DNA from: Chloroflexota bacterium
GTDB taxonomy: Bacteria; Chloroflexota; Anaerolineae; DTLA01
DNA length: 64,000 bases
Assembly: GCA_014874485.1 (NCBI GenBank)
Contig: JADBJK010000074.1
Location: 62,001 to 126,000, forward strand
Direction: 5' to 3'
Shown: piece after piece, positions 46,250 through 52,429 of the stretch
Layout: each line of letters begins with the position of its first letter
Position numbering within the stretch: the first letter of the stretch is position 1
Translations under genes and position numbers: made by a program
The notes under the pieces: model-generated
Told to the model about the DNA's origin: nothing
The model's input: only the letters and a program-made list of their open reading frames with translations
The model's database searches: none

Positions 46250-46660
46250 TCAGTCAGAGTCCAGCCAATCCGCAAACTGGCGAGGGGTTACGATGGGGAT
46301 GTCCTGGAACTTGCCCAGCAGCAGGAGATCCTGATCGCCGGAGATGATACAGTCCACGCGGCCCGCCACTGCCGCTGCCAGCACGGCATTGTCCCCCGGA
46401 TCGCGGCAGGCGTCCGGCGTCTCGGCAGGAGTAACCCACTCCGCACCGAGCGCCACGAGGTCCACCCACTCGTCGGCAAGGCCCGGCGGCGGATGGATGC
46501 GCGTGGCGAGGGTATGCAAGACACGGCCCAGTTCATCCAATAGGGCAGCCGACACGACAGCCTCAAACTCGCCGTCGCGCCAACGCAGCAATAACTGGTG
46601 CGGCAGTCCGGTCCAGAAGATGCCAGAGACCCACACCGATGTATCAATCACCACTCGCAT
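46250..46660 (-). CDS. PIN-domain toxin (VapC-like ribonuclease)
   Basis: A 136-residue PIN-domain protein: VVIDTSVWVSG (first Asp), DELGRVL (Glu), RDPGDNAVLAAAVAG (Asp pair) and IISGDQDLLLLG (last Asp) give the four-acid Mg site of PIN nucleases. It is closest to the 'PIN-family putative toxin' group (COG1569). The ATG lies inside the end of the upstream HTH gene, a 17-base overlap that implies coupled translation. Together they form a type II toxin-antitoxin module; the RNA target is unknown. Confidence 0.85.
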   Translation of the reverse strand: MRVVIDTSVWVSGIFWTGLPHQLLLRWRDGEFEAVVSAALLDELGRVLHTLATRIHPPPGLADEWVDLVALGAEWVTPAETPDACRDPGDNAVLAAAVAGRVDCIISGDQDLLLLGKFQDIPIVTPRQFADWLDSD

Positions 46661-46979
46661 CGCGCAGCACCCGCTCGGCCTCGTCATCCGTCAACGTGCC
46701 CGGGTGCAGCCCCTGGGCTTCCAGATGGCGGCGGAAAGCCTCCTGCGACTCGGACAGGGCGTGGTCAAATCGCTCCTGCCACATGCGCGACCGCCGTACC
46801 GTCTTGCGCTCCAGCAGGAAGCGGCGCAGGTCACCGGGGTCCACCCGGTAGACACGGCCGAGCCGCACTGCCGGCAGGTCGCCGTTCTGGATCCACTTGT
46901 ACACCTGCCGCACGTTCACCCGGAGGCTGTCGGCCACCTCCTGGGGCGTCAATGTTCTAAAAGTCGCGGGAAGAGCCAT
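46644..46979 (-). CDS. Excisionase-type HTH protein, probable antitoxin
   Basis: A 111-residue protein with an N-terminal MerR/excisionase-like helix-turn-helix (about 8-56; LTPQEVADSLRVNVRQVYKWIQNGDLPAVRLGRVYRV, core VNVRQVYKWIQNGDLP) and a charged helical tail that could bind the toxin. It precedes and overlaps the PIN gene, the usual antitoxin position. A promoter with a palindrome between its hexamers lies right before the start, suggesting autoregulation. A regulator unrelated to toxin-antitoxin function cannot be excluded. Confidence 0.8.
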   Translation of the reverse strand: MALPATFRTLTPQEVADSLRVNVRQVYKWIQNGDLPAVRLGRVYRVDPGDLRRFLLERKTVRRSRMWQERFDHALSESQEAFRRHLEAQGLHPGTLTDDEAERVLRDASGD

Positions 46980-47246: not shown

Positions 47247-47291
47247 TGTGACAAAAGTTACACGCGCCCAACGCCGAAGTATGCTATACTC
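47247..47291 (+). promoter_or_regulatory. CRP/FNR-type operator plus extended -10 of the heme-copper operon
   Basis: TGTGAC-AAAA-GTTACA (47247-47262) is a dyad with a single mismatch, fitting CRP/FNR-family sites. TGCTATACT (47283-47291) is an extended -10 without a proper -35. The dyad centre is about 43 bases upstream of the expected start site, close to the class II activator position (-41.5). Confidence 0.6.
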
Positions 47292-47365: not shown

Positions 47366-47470
47366 ATGTACGCGACGGATGTCATCTGGTGGGCCTACAC
47401 GGCGTTCCTGGTCCTGGTGATTCTGTTCATGCTGCTTTTCGCCTGGAAGGTGAGGGAGAAAGGAGGGTGA
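47366..47470 (+). CDS. 34-residue single-helix subunit, candidate heme-copper oxidase subunit IIa
   Basis: A very short gene encoding MYATDVIWWAYTAFLVLV..., one membrane helix (about 7-27) and a KVREKGG basic end. GAGGAGGGAGG lies just upstream of the ATG, and the stop is two bases before the subunit II start, whose ribosome site is its last codons (AAAGGAGGG). Thermus ba3 oxidase has a 34-residue single-helix subunit IIa in its complex; identical length, topology and position make this the likely counterpart, though sequence identity cannot be judged at this length. Confidence 0.75.
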   Translation: MYATDVIWWAYTAFLVLVILFMLLFAWKVREKGG

Positions 47471-47472
47471 AG

Positions 47473-47895
47473 ATGGACAGACGTGAACGGAACTGGCTGT
47501 TGGTTCTGGTGGGCGTGTTCCTGCTCGTCAATGTCATCACGCTGTCGCCCCTGGTTCCCTGGCAGAAGTGGCTCCTCTGGTCCCGCCCCACGCCCGACCG
47601 AATCGTCCCCGTGGAGTTTGAGAACTACCAGATTCGGCTGCCGCAGGGCGGCGTGGAGGTGAAGGCCAACGAGTTCGTGCAGTTCGTCGCCACGTCCAAA
47701 GACGTAACCTACGGGTTCGGCGTGTTCCGACCCGACGGCACGATGGTATTCCAGATGCAGGTGCTGCCGGGGTACCAGAACAAGATCACGTGGCGATTTG
47801 ACACCCCTGGCGTGTACGATGTGCGCTCCACCGAATACTCAGGCCCGCGGCATCCGGAGATGTACATCCCGAATGCCATACGGGTGCTGCCGTAG
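47473..47895 (+). CDS. Subunit II-like cupredoxin of a heme-copper oxidase, CuA site lost
   Basis: A 140-residue protein: one N-terminal membrane helix (about 8-26) and a periplasmic cupredoxin domain (45-140) like B-family subunit II (NEFVQFVATSKDVTYGFGV, LPGYQNKITWRFDTPGVYDV). The CuA motif C-x3-C-x3-H-x2-M reads S119-x3-S123-x3-H127-x2-M130, so both bridging cysteines are Ser, and the first His of the site (TSxDVxHGF) is Tyr80. It therefore should not bind CuA and cannot take electrons from cytochrome c in the usual way. Start ATG follows AGGAGGG at 6-12 bases. Confidence 0.85.
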   Translation: MDRRERNWLLVLVGVFLLVNVITLSPLVPWQKWLLWSRPTPDRIVPVEFENYQIRLPQGGVEVKANEFVQFVATSKDVTYGFGVFRPDGTMVFQMQVLPGYQNKITWRFDTPGVYDVRSTEYSGPRHPEMYIPNAIRVLP

Positions 47896-47906
47896 GGAGG
47901 TGCGAC

Positions 47907-49559
47907 ATGGCGAAACTCAACTGGCAAACCAAGTGGACGCTGCGTTTTGCGGTTGTTGGCCTGCTGTTCCTGGCGCTGTCGGGATTTGAGGGCATCCTCA
48001 TGCGCATCCAGTTGGCCGCGCCCGACGCGCTGCACGGGATGGAGCAGGCGCTGATGGCGCTGCGCCCCGTCGGGCGCGAGGTTACGTCCGCCGAACTGTA
48101 CTACGCCATGCTGACGGCGCACCCCATCGTGGGCATCTACGGCTTCGCCTACATGCTGGTCTTTGGCGCGTTCTACTTCCTGGTGCCCTACCTGCTGGGC
48201 AAGGAGGTCCGCCACAAGAAACTGCTGGTGTTCAACTTCTGGGCGCAGATCGTTGGGGTGCTCACCTGCTGGGCGGCGGGCTTCTTCGGGCTGTTCAACT
48301 CGCTGTACACGCTCTACTGGCCGCTGCCCGTGTCCTACGACCGCGTGCCGCTCGTCGGCAGCATTGCCTTCACCGTGGGCGCGGCCATCATCATGGTCAA
48401 CATCCTGCTGTTCTCGTACAACACCTTCAGCACCGTGTTGAGCAAGAGCAACCCGGGGTCCTACAGTTTCGGCGCGTTCCTGCGGGCGGCCTTCGGCATC
48501 TCGCGCCTGATGAAGCGCCTGGGCAGGGAGGACAAGGCCGCGCCCAACCTGGACTACAACGGCCTGCCCGTGTTCATCGTGGCGGTGGCGCGCGGCTCCA
48601 TTGACACCGTCATCAACGCCATCGTGCTCCTGACGGCGGGCGCGCTGATCCTGGTCTATGGCATCGCGGCGCTCCTCAAGTCGCCACTGAACCCCGCCGC
48701 CGTTGACCCGCTCATCTACAAGAACTGGTTCTGGTGGGGCCTGGACATGGTGGCCGACGGCAACGTGCTGATATACACGGCGGGCGTGTGGTATCTGCTG
48801 GTGCCGCTCCTGGTGGGCCGCAAACTGTTCGGCGAGAACGTGGTCAAGACGGTCATCATGGTGGACCTGCTGGTGTCCCTTGGCGTGTGGAGCCACCACC
48901 TGCTGGGCGACCAGAGCCAGCCGCTGTGGATGCGGCTGATTTCGGGCCAGTTCATCACCTGGGGCGAGTTCTTCACCATGGGCCTGACGCTGTTCGCCAC
49001 GCTGATGACCATCTGGCTGGCGCGCCCGGTCAAGTTCTCGCCGCCGCTCAAGTTCGTGCTGGGCTCCATGTTCGGGTTCATCATGGGCGGCGCGGCGGGC
49101 CTCATCCAGGCCAACGTGGGGCTGAACGTGGTGTTCCACAACACCCAGTGGGTCGTGTCGCTCCACGCGCACACGTTCCTGCTGACCGGCCTGGCGATGC
49201 TCCTGTTCGCCGTCGTGTACGCCCTGATTCCCATGCTCACGAACCTGGAAATCAAGAGCAACCGTCTGGTGAACGCCCACTTTTGGCTGTGGATGGTCGG
49301 CTCGGTGGGAATGGCCTACGTGATGGGCATGGCGGGGGCGCGCGGGATGCTCCGCCGCACGCTGTACCCCGAAGGCAACCCCTACCAGACCAACGAGACG
49401 CTGGCCATCGTCGGCGGCGTTCTGATCGGCCTGGGGTTCCTGGCCTTCCTGGTCAACATCATCGCGACGCTGGGCTGGCGGAACGTCCTGAGCCTGGTCG
49501 TCCCCGAGCGGTGGCTGGAGCGGCAACCGTCGGCGGCGCTGGCCGAGGCGCAACCCTAG
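47907..49559 (+). CDS. Heme-copper oxidase superfamily subunit I, divergent (candidate NO reductase)
   Basis: A 550-residue membrane protein with about 13-14 helices. Low-spin heme ligands are His72 (LTAHPIVGIYGF) and His422; His420 is the high-spin heme ligand (SLHAHTFLLTG, aligned with VAHFHYVLS of A-type enzymes); His330-His331 (VWSHHLLGD) fit the CuB pair. The third CuB His, normally in the GHPEVY/GHPIVY helix, is missing: NWFWWGLDMVADGNVLIY places Asp280 at that position, and the cross-linked Tyr is absent. This active site suggests a non-O2-reducing member such as the gNOR/sNOR-type NO reductases rather than an oxidase. Co-transcribed with the two preceding genes. Confidence 0.88.
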   Translation: MAKLNWQTKWTLRFAVVGLLFLALSGFEGILMRIQLAAPDALHGMEQALMALRPVGREVTSAELYYAMLTAHPIVGIYGFAYMLVFGAFYFLVPYLLGKEVRHKKLLVFNFWAQIVGVLTCWAAGFFGLFNSLYTLYWPLPVSYDRVPLVGSIAFTVGAAIIMVNILLFSYNTFSTVLSKSNPGSYSFGAFLRAAFGISRLMKRLGREDKAAPNLDYNGLPVFIVAVARGSIDTVINAIVLLTAGALILVYGIAALLKSPLNPAAVDPLIYKNWFWWGLDMVADGNVLIYTAGVWYLLVPLLVGRKLFGENVVKTVIMVDLLVSLGVWSHHLLGDQSQPLWMRLISGQFITWGEFFTMGLTLFATLMTIWLARPVKFSPPLKFVLGSMFGFIMGGAAGLIQANVGLNVVFHNTQWVVSLHAHTFLLTGLAMLLFAVVYALIPMLTNLEIKSNRLVNAHFWLWMVGSVGMAYVMGMAGARGMLRRTLYPEGNPYQTNETLAIVGGVLIGLGFLAFLVNIIATLGWRNVLSLVVPERWLERQPSAALAEAQP

Positions 49560-49585
49560 CCGTGAATCTACTTGAATTAAGGGAC

Positions 49586-49623
49586 AACGATGCGACGCAC
49601 CTTCGGAAGTGCGTCGCATCGTT
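49586..49623 (+). terminator. Hairpin closing the heme-copper operon
   Basis: AACGATGCGACGCAC and GTGCGTCGCATCGTT form a 15-bp perfect stem with an 8-nt loop, 27 bases after the stop. The stem is a variant of the GTGCGACGCACC palindrome family, so here a repeat appears to serve as the terminator. Confidence 0.75.
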
Positions 49624-49627
49624 CTCG

Positions 49628-49969: not shown

Positions 49970-51076
49970 ATGAAGAAGATGTTCATCGTCGGCCCCGTGG
50001 ACGTCTTTGATGACGTGCTGGCCGTGATGGGCGAACAGGTGATCGCCCACTACGGCGACGACTTCGTGCGCCTGTACCGCGAGACGCAGGACCTCACCCG
50101 CATGGTCCTCGGCGCGTCCGGCGACGTGTTCCTGATGGCGGGGCCTGGGACAGCCGGCCTGGACGCCTGCTTGGGCAGCCTGCTCCAGACCGGCGAGAAG
50201 GTGCTCATCCCCGTCAGCGGCTTCTTCAGCGACCGCCTCGTCGCCGTCGCCAAAGGGTCGGGCCTGGAGCCGGTGGTGGAGGAGTTTGAGTGGGGCGCGC
50301 CGGTGGAGCCGGAACGACTGCGCAGGCGGCTTGCGAGCGAGAAGGGCGTCGCTGCCCTGGCCTTCGTGCACCACGAGACCTCAACGGGCGTCCTCAACCC
50401 GCTGGACGAAATCGTCGGCGTGGCCCATGAGTTCGGCGTGCCCGTCATCGTGGATGCCGTCGCGTCGGCGGGCGGGGTTCCGGTGGACGTGGACCGCCTA
50501 GGGATTGAGTTCCTCGTTACCGTGGCGAACAAGGCACTGGAAGCGCCGCCTGGCTTGTCCATTGTCTCCGTGAACAAGCGGGCTTGGGAGTTGATGGACA
50601 AAGGTGGCCCGCGCAATCACGGCTGGTATCTGGACCTGCGCACGTGGCGCGACTACGCCACCCGCTGGGCCGACTGGCACCCGTTCCCCGTTACGCTACC
50701 GACCAGCGTCGTGCGGGCGCTGCACACGTCTCTCCTGCGCATCCAGCGCGAGGGGCTGGACCATCACTTCGCCCGATTCGCCCGGGCCGCCGAGCAGGTT
50801 CGGCAGGGTCTGCGCGCGATGGGGTTCTCCATGATGGTGGAAGGGCGCTACGCGTGTCCGGTGGTGTCGGCGGTGTGGGCGCGGCCCGAGTTCCCCGTTG
50901 CCGAGATGGCTGCCTACCTGGAGCACGAGCGCGGCCTCATGATCGCCGGGGGCATCGGCCCGCTCAAGGGCAAGATTTTCCGCATCGGGCACATGGGCAA
51001 GGCCACGACGCAGGAGTACATTGACGAGTTGCTCGCGGCGGTGCGCGATTTCCTGCGCATGAAAGGGCTGGCGTAG
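49970..51076 (+). CDS. Class V aminotransferase (serine/alanine-glyoxylate type)
   Basis: A 368-residue PLP enzyme of the serine-pyruvate/alanine-glyoxylate aminotransferase group: VGPVDVFDDVLAVMGEQVIAHYGDDF, GPGTAGLDACLGSLL, HHETSTGVLNPLDEI, VDAVASAGGVPVDVDRLGI, and PLP Lys188 in TVANKALEAPPGLSIVS. The 'KAL..PPG' motif is typical. Candidate reactions are serine or alanine to glyoxylate transamination; cysteine desulfuration is less likely because the IscS-type cysteine loop is absent. ATG with AGGAGGAAGA just upstream. Confidence 0.9.
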   Translation: MKKMFIVGPVDVFDDVLAVMGEQVIAHYGDDFVRLYRETQDLTRMVLGASGDVFLMAGPGTAGLDACLGSLLQTGEKVLIPVSGFFSDRLVAVAKGSGLEPVVEEFEWGAPVEPERLRRRLASEKGVAALAFVHHETSTGVLNPLDEIVGVAHEFGVPVIVDAVASAGGVPVDVDRLGIEFLVTVANKALEAPPGLSIVSVNKRAWELMDKGGPRNHGWYLDLRTWRDYATRWADWHPFPVTLPTSVVRALHTSLLRIQREGLDHHFARFARAAEQVRQGLRAMGFSMMVEGRYACPVVSAVWARPEFPVAEMAAYLEHERGLMIAGGIGPLKGKIFRIGHMGKATTQEYIDELLAAVRDFLRMKGLA

Positions 51077-51928: not shown

Positions 51929-52395
51929 CGTCGCGGGCGAAGCGAAGCATCTCGGTTGACGAGTAGGGGCAATTCATGAATTGCCCCTACGGGCGCTGCG
52001 CGTCCTCGCAATGACAACTTCTGCCTGTCATTGCGGGCGAAGCGAAGCATCTCGGTTGCGAGATTCTTCGCGGCTTCGCCGCTCAGAATGACGGAGTCAT
52101 CTGTCATTGCGGGCGAAGCGAAGCATCTCGGTTGGCGAGATTCTTCGGCGCTTCGCGCCTCAGTAGGGACAATTCATGAATTGTCCCTACGGGCGCTGCG
52201 CGTCCTCGCAATGACAACTTCTGCCTGTCATTGCGAGCGAAGCGAAGCAATCCCGGGCCGCGGAGATTCTTCGCGGCTTCGCCGCTCAGAATGACAGAGT
52301 CATCTGTCATTGCGAGCGAAGCGAAGCATCTCGGTTGACGAGTAGGGGCAATTCATGAATTGCCCCTACGGGCGCTGCGCGTCCCTCACATTGAC
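51929..52395. repeat. Composite repeat block between divergent genes
   Basis: About 470 bases of gene-free repeats. Three 26-bp palindromes, TAGGGGCAATTCATGAATTG... (51964-51989), TAGGGACAATTCATGAATTG... (52164-52189) and TAGGGGCAATTCATGAATTG... (52343-52368), each sit in a CATTGCGAGCG/AATCTCG... context with GCGCTGCGCGTCCTCGCAAT. This is the only block in a divergent gap. Confidence 0.92.
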
Positions 52396-52429
52396 GGTTG
52401 CCACCGGCCCGTTGCGACCGCCAACGCCT

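Follow-up and report, generated by a model that had tools for sequence, protein, structure and literature searches.

The 64,000-nucleotide stretch of Chloroflexota DNA analysed here (in the following, the window) carries a three-gene operon. Its product is quite likely a gNOR-type complex, and most probably an NO reductase with quinol as electron donor (2 NO -> N2O) that would serve the removal of NO. Gene structure, protein family, invariant residues, the loss of the CuA ligands and the gene content of related genomes are direct observations. As far as sequence comparison goes, three features are new in this study: a clade of Chloroflexota sequences that is sister to classical gNOR and set apart by three residues, a separate 34-aa gene in this clade for what is otherwise helix 1 of subunit II, and a conserved Crp-type site before the putative promoter in the window genus.

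Operon structure and flanking signals

The three-gene heme-copper operon that the initial annotation had proposed for positions 47366-49559 was recovered there, with all genes on the plus strand. Open reading frame calls delimit a 34-aa single-helix, IIa-like subunit (47366..47470), subunit II of 140 aa with one helix and a cupredoxin domain (47473..47895), and subunit I of 550 aa, a member of the heme-copper superfamily by its match to PF00115 (47907..49559). The genes are separated by 2 nt (34-aa gene and subunit II) and 11 nt (subunit II and subunit I).

Upstream, a Crp/Fnr-type palindrome, TGTGACAAAAGTTACA (47247..47262, plus strand), has its centre near -42.5 relative to the inferred start site, and a probable -10 element, TATACT, was assigned by eye at 47285..47290 (plus strand). 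The palindrome is the sole match to TGTGA-N6-TCACA with one mismatch within the 64-kb window, for which 1.2 such matches are expected by chance. Across three genomes of the window genus, GACAAAAGTTACA is identical amid otherwise diverged DNA and forms the longest conserved upstream block before the leader. A sigma-70 scan did not find a full promoter, as expected if the promoter is activated. A Crp/Fnr box common to all Chloroflexota loci was considered and rejected, a clear box being confined to the window genus.

Downstream, a strong hairpin on the plus strand (49583..49626) begins 24 nt past the stop codon of subunit I and consists of an 18-nt inverted repeat (-30.1 kcal/mol, z -4.1). It has no clear T run and the terminator scan listed none there; it is the probable transcript end.

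Several further features surround the operon. Just upstream, on the opposite strand, a PIN-domain toxin and an HTH_17 protein (46250-46979, minus strand) form a probable toxin-antitoxin pair. A class-V aminotransferase follows at 49971-51076; its place is taken by a YtfE-like hemerythrin in L034, a near-identical genome, which indicates a rearrangement right after the operon. Three copies of a dispersed direct repeat about 80-88 nt long, with the inner palindrome GTAGGGGCAATTCATGAATTGCCCCTAC, lie within 470 bases at 51962-52428; their translations hold a recurring 'HCERSEAI'-like stretch.

Subunit I and its active site

Subunit I matches PF00115 with 1.4e-64, and its structure model (AF2, pTM 0.87) aligns to oxidase subunit I with VIA-align Z values of up to 40.8. 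With dN/dS ratios of 0.04 and 0.09 it is under purifying selection, which rules against a gene in decay.

Across 80 full-length sequences, among them that of the window, the residues E28, R33, H72, D280, D284, H330, H331, E354, H420, and H422 never vary. The heme and metal histidines named by the initial annotation, H72, H330/H331 (the metal-ligand pair, codons at 48894..48899, plus strand), and H420/H422, are therefore retained throughout the family. The same annotation had proposed that the third metal-ligand His and the cross-linked Tyr are gone, and both losses extend to all relatives. In alignments of the 80 sequences, D280 (codon 48744..48746, plus strand) invariably stands in place of the third ligand, TM VI (268-303) contains no conserved His, and D284 (48756..48758, plus strand) occupies the position of the oxidase Tyr or of Glu211 in cNOR, the Tyr being absent from every sequence. 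No alignment turned up with a His rather than Asp280 at the third-ligand position; a few sequences have a His within 262-306, which, where printed, is located in the loop before the TM VI helix. Besides D284, two more acidic residues that had escaped notice are invariant in 80/80: E354 in TM VIII (48966..48968, plus strand), in the column of cNOR Glu280, and E28 (47988..47990, plus strand), at the position that Asp75 holds in E. coli bo3.

The TM VI pattern is His-x3-Tyr in oxidases and His-x3-Glu in cNOR; the window family has Asp-x3-Asp. When aligned with cNOR/qNOR-like sequences from genomes of gNOR carriers, D280, D284, and E354 land on the columns of the ligand His, Glu211, and Glu280, respectively (Pseudomonas numbering). 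These column matches rest on anchor motifs, since the hhalign probability to the cNOR profile as a whole is 1.6%. The E354 column is non-acidic in the A-, B-, and C-type oxidases compared. TM VI of gNOR is one residue longer than that of A- and B-type oxidases, aligners put D280 either on the ligand His or one residue off, and gaps of the profile-profile alignments fall in this helix. The register is thus uncertain by one residue against A/B oxidases and exact against cNOR. The conclusion on the active site is independent of the register: no His is conserved in TM VI, and the only residues of this helix that are both invariant and able to serve as ligands are D280 and D284.

Subunit II and the separate 34-aa helix

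Subunit II matches CoxB (TIGR02866, 4e-8) and, weakly, COX2. Its suspected loss of CuA, with both Cys changed to Ser and the first His to Tyr80, is confirmed across 76 subunit II sequences: S119, S123, and Y80 are invariant or nearly so, and both CuA Cys (STEYSGP) as well as the first His are lost in 76/76. E121 is kept, H127 mainly so in the Chloroflexota clade, and the cupredoxin domain holds many invariant residues. For the model (AF2, pLDDT 88), the best fold match is CyoA of bo3, tied with CuA domains at a Z of about 12.

The 34-aa gene was found at every Chloroflexota locus with intact upstream DNA. Classical gNOR subunit II has two N-terminal helices, whereas that of the Chloroflexota has one and is split into 34 aa and 140 aa. 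In a search with an HMM of the 34-aa protein, TM1 of the classical subunit II fills all 44 best places, with 27.9 bits at best against 6.5 bits for the best unrelated decoy; the 34-aa gene thus corresponds to TM1 of the classical subunit II. Compared with the PDB on its own, the 34-aa protein had no useful match. Subunit II is most likely a structural cupredoxin without CuA that is completed by the 34-aa helix. One Anaerolineae genome (locus L151) carries a classical fused subunit II.

A separate IIa is also known from B-type oxidases. The ba3 and bNOR/sNOR systems, with gene order IIa-II-I, likewise have a short one-helix subunit gene just before subunit II (CbaC has 46 aa; PMC3475470). Unlike the window complex, they have Tyr or Asn at the active-site position and retain CuA, and they are far away in the tree.

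Assignment to gNOR, phylogeny and distribution

Our definition of gNOR is second-hand, as given in PMC8756737, PMC3475470, and PMC8906906. Table A4 of PMC8756737 lists Asp at the Tyr position in gNOR of Sulfurimonas, Sulfurovum, and Persephonella, Asn in sNOR, and Gln in eNOR. In certain NORs a metal-ligand His is replaced by Asp (PMC3475470, with reference to Hemp and Gennis 2008 and Sievert 2008), in line with the remark in the initial annotation on non-canonical third ligands in divergent B-family NO reductases. Furthermore, gNOR (norGH) is described as a quinone-oxidising, non-electrogenic NO reductase (PMC8906906).

The window complex shares with gNOR (NorGH; Sulfurimonas, Sulfurovum, Persephonella, Methylomirabilis) the Asp at the Tyr position, the replacement of a ligand His by Asp, and a cupredoxin subunit II without CuA ligands; its subunit I is 41-45% identical to that of Sulfurimonas/Sulfuricurvum. 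An assignment of the three-gene operon to gNOR is thereby supported on comparative grounds. Of the original proposal 'gNOR/sNOR', the first half stands, given the double-Asp site and CuA-less subunit II as in the Sulfurimonas/Sulfuricurvum-type homologues, while sNOR was rejected, having Asn where the window has Asp (PMC8756737). The Gln of eNOR is likewise not found at this position. Neither the cross-linked Tyr nor the complete set of three CuB His of A-/B-family O2 reductases is present, nor is the FeB site of cNOR/qNOR, built from three His and a Glu and accompanied by a cytochrome c subunit or fused domain. The latter enzymes are alike in having an acidic residue four positions after the TM VI ligand and another in TM VIII, but the window has Asp, not His, as TM VI ligand and a cupredoxin, not a cytochrome c, as subunit II, and the two are distant in the tree.

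Relatives were collected with a profile of close relatives, searched in named genomes. Chloroflexota account for 23 loci, 22 of which are full length at 62-99% identity in subunit I. Outside this phylum, 57 loci at 41-45% identity occur in Campylobacterota (including Sulfurimonas, Sulfuricurvum, and Sulfurospirillaceae), Bacteroidota, Ignavibacteria, Acidobacteriota, Actinomycetes, and others. In the tree, whose references are without authenticated eNOR, sNOR, and nNOR, the window joins the sequences of Sulfurimonas type and stands apart from the oxidases and the other NORs. Chloroflexota and classical gNOR are sisters (SH-aLRT/UFBoot 99.2/86; classical group 100/100), far from A-, B-, and C-type oxidases and from cNOR/qNOR. 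A position inside the O2-reducing oxidases, which would have spoken against the initial annotation, was thus not seen. Both groups are fully separated by three residues: N286, W352, and N403 in the 23 Chloroflexota sequences are L or M, A, and D, respectively, in the 57 classical ones.

A different heme-copper subunit I, at locus L018 (genome G031), has His-x3-Asn in TM VI (GHAIAN) and a very long branch; it is a candidate sNOR/nNOR-like enzyme in Anaerolineae.

Gene content and neighbourhood

The genome that harbours the window (3.74 Mb, 96% complete) belongs to the class Anaerolineae, as judged from its near-identical relative L034. It contains one cytochrome bd, no other PF00115 gene, and none of NirS, NirK, and NosZ. 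To place this in context, gene content was compared among 69 Anaerolineae genomes, 20 gNOR carriers and 49 others; the p-values given here ignore relatedness. Clade-II NosZ occurs in 0/20 carriers and 12/49 others (p 0.014), full-length NirS in 0/20 and 4/49, and NirK above the family cut-off in 0/20 and 9/49 (p 0.05); one NirS-like fragment was detected in carrier G049. Hence, a source of NO was not found in the carriers. Cytochrome bd is commoner among them (12/20 vs 13/49, p 0.013), which indicates that these anaerobes do meet O2.

The two gNOR groups differ in adjacent regulators. Of the 45 classical loci with enough sequence, 20 have the gene of a three-Cys Rrf2-type regulator (C-x6-C-x5-C) immediately upstream; adjacent Rrf2 genes are confined to classical loci, whereas Crp/Fnr regulator genes are near seven Chloroflexota loci. 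A YtfE-like hemerythrin is found beside or near three Chloroflexota loci, including a member of the window genus. Also among the Chloroflexota, the heme o synthase gene adjoins gNOR in L052 (right after it) and G458, and CtaB-like matches above 160 bits are present in 19/20 carriers, including the window's own genome (211 bits, over the cut-off). The latter match, together with gNOR as the sole heme-copper enzyme, suggests heme O, which is probably the high-spin heme in most carriers.

Proteins without a Pfam family were observed directly after gNOR at some loci. In a Thermoflexia genome, L038 (7740-9119), and possibly also L041, a multi-helix protein of 447-459 aa with HLHAML and GHWHVL motifs follows. 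A membrane protein of about 200 aa follows in L056, L070, L073, L074, L085, L095, L098, and L101; it is conserved in Campylobacterota and one Myxococcales MAG.

Electron donor, proposed mechanism and alternatives

In three alignment modes, E28 shares its column with Asp75 of CyoB from E. coli, a residue of the bo3 quinol site; among the remaining oxidases in the comparison, this column holds Leu, Met, Phe, or Tyr. Both the window subunit I and CyoB have an Arg five residues after the acidic residue, and bo3 (CyoAB) also shares the CuA-less cupredoxin subunit II. In contrast to bo3, the window complex lacks the Tyr, the third His, and the quinol-site residues R71, H98, and Q101, and encodes TM1 of subunit II as a separate gene. 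PF00033 cytochrome b was found neither in the window's own genome nor in 15/20 carriers. Considering E28, the loss of the CuA ligands, the CyoA fold match, and the rarity of PF00033, quinol is the best reading of the electron donor.

Metal, donor, reaction and role can be combined as follows. Membrane quinol would donate its electrons to subunit I at a site to which E28 belongs; from there they would pass via the low-spin heme (H72/H422) and the high-spin heme (H420) to a non-heme metal. This metal, probably iron, would have H330, H331, and two carboxylates, those of D280 and D284, as ligands, with E354 and D284 in the role of the cNOR Glu pair. The enzyme would probably remove NO during nitrosative stress, under the control of an activator of the Crp/Fnr type, and not be part of full denitrification. 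This role is suggested by the lack of clade-II NosZ, full-length NirS, and NirK above cut-off in the carriers, and by homologues that adjoin Rrf2, Crp/Fnr, YtfE-like, and heme o synthase genes. NO reduction by the gNOR family is a proposal; no gNOR is known to have been assayed for this activity or otherwise characterised biochemically.

A cytochrome c or another periplasmic carrier might feed the NO reductase instead, with subunit II as docking platform. All 20 carriers have cytochrome c assembly genes, the cupredoxin domain is rich in invariant residues, and the bo3 quinol-site residues other than Asp75 are not kept; yet we judge this unlikely in view of the CuA ligands lost from every subunit II, the lack of PF00033 in 15/20 carriers, and E28 at the quinol-site Asp column. 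The bo3-like traits of subunit II and E28 would equally suit a quinol oxidase for microaerobic O2 removal, operating at an unusual site without Tyr cofactor, in carriers that more often possess cytochrome bd. Such an enzyme is very improbable, as none of the 80 sequences has the cross-linked Tyr or the full set of ligand His, one of which is missing throughout, the family lies outside the A-, B-, and C-type oxidases, and E354 is a cNOR-type residue.

The heme-copper fold could also act on another substrate (e.g., nitrite, hydroxylamine, or sulfur species) or as a sensor. Most carriers lack an NO-producing nitrite reductase, and iron as the B-site metal is a putative assignment, which leaves room for this reading. 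It nonetheless seems improbable, because the Rrf2, Crp/Fnr, and YtfE-like neighbours point to nitrosative stress, the acidic residues are cNOR-like, and the complete heme ligand set with strong purifying selection argue for catalysis.

Implications

That a two-His, two-Asp B site, probably with iron, supports quinol-driven reduction of NO in anaerobes without other denitrification is a tentative proposal, to which we give slightly less than even credence. If true, such a site would differ chemically both from CuB, with its three His, and from FeB, where a Glu joins three His. The conserved residues D280, D284, E354, and E28 make metal, donor, and reaction directly testable. Genes of the Chloroflexota clade match general cytochrome c oxidase models, and the 34-aa gene for the split-off helix is small enough to be overlooked easily in annotation. 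The clade may represent an N2O-producing potential in anaerobes whose Nir and Nos gene content would class them as non-denitrifiers.
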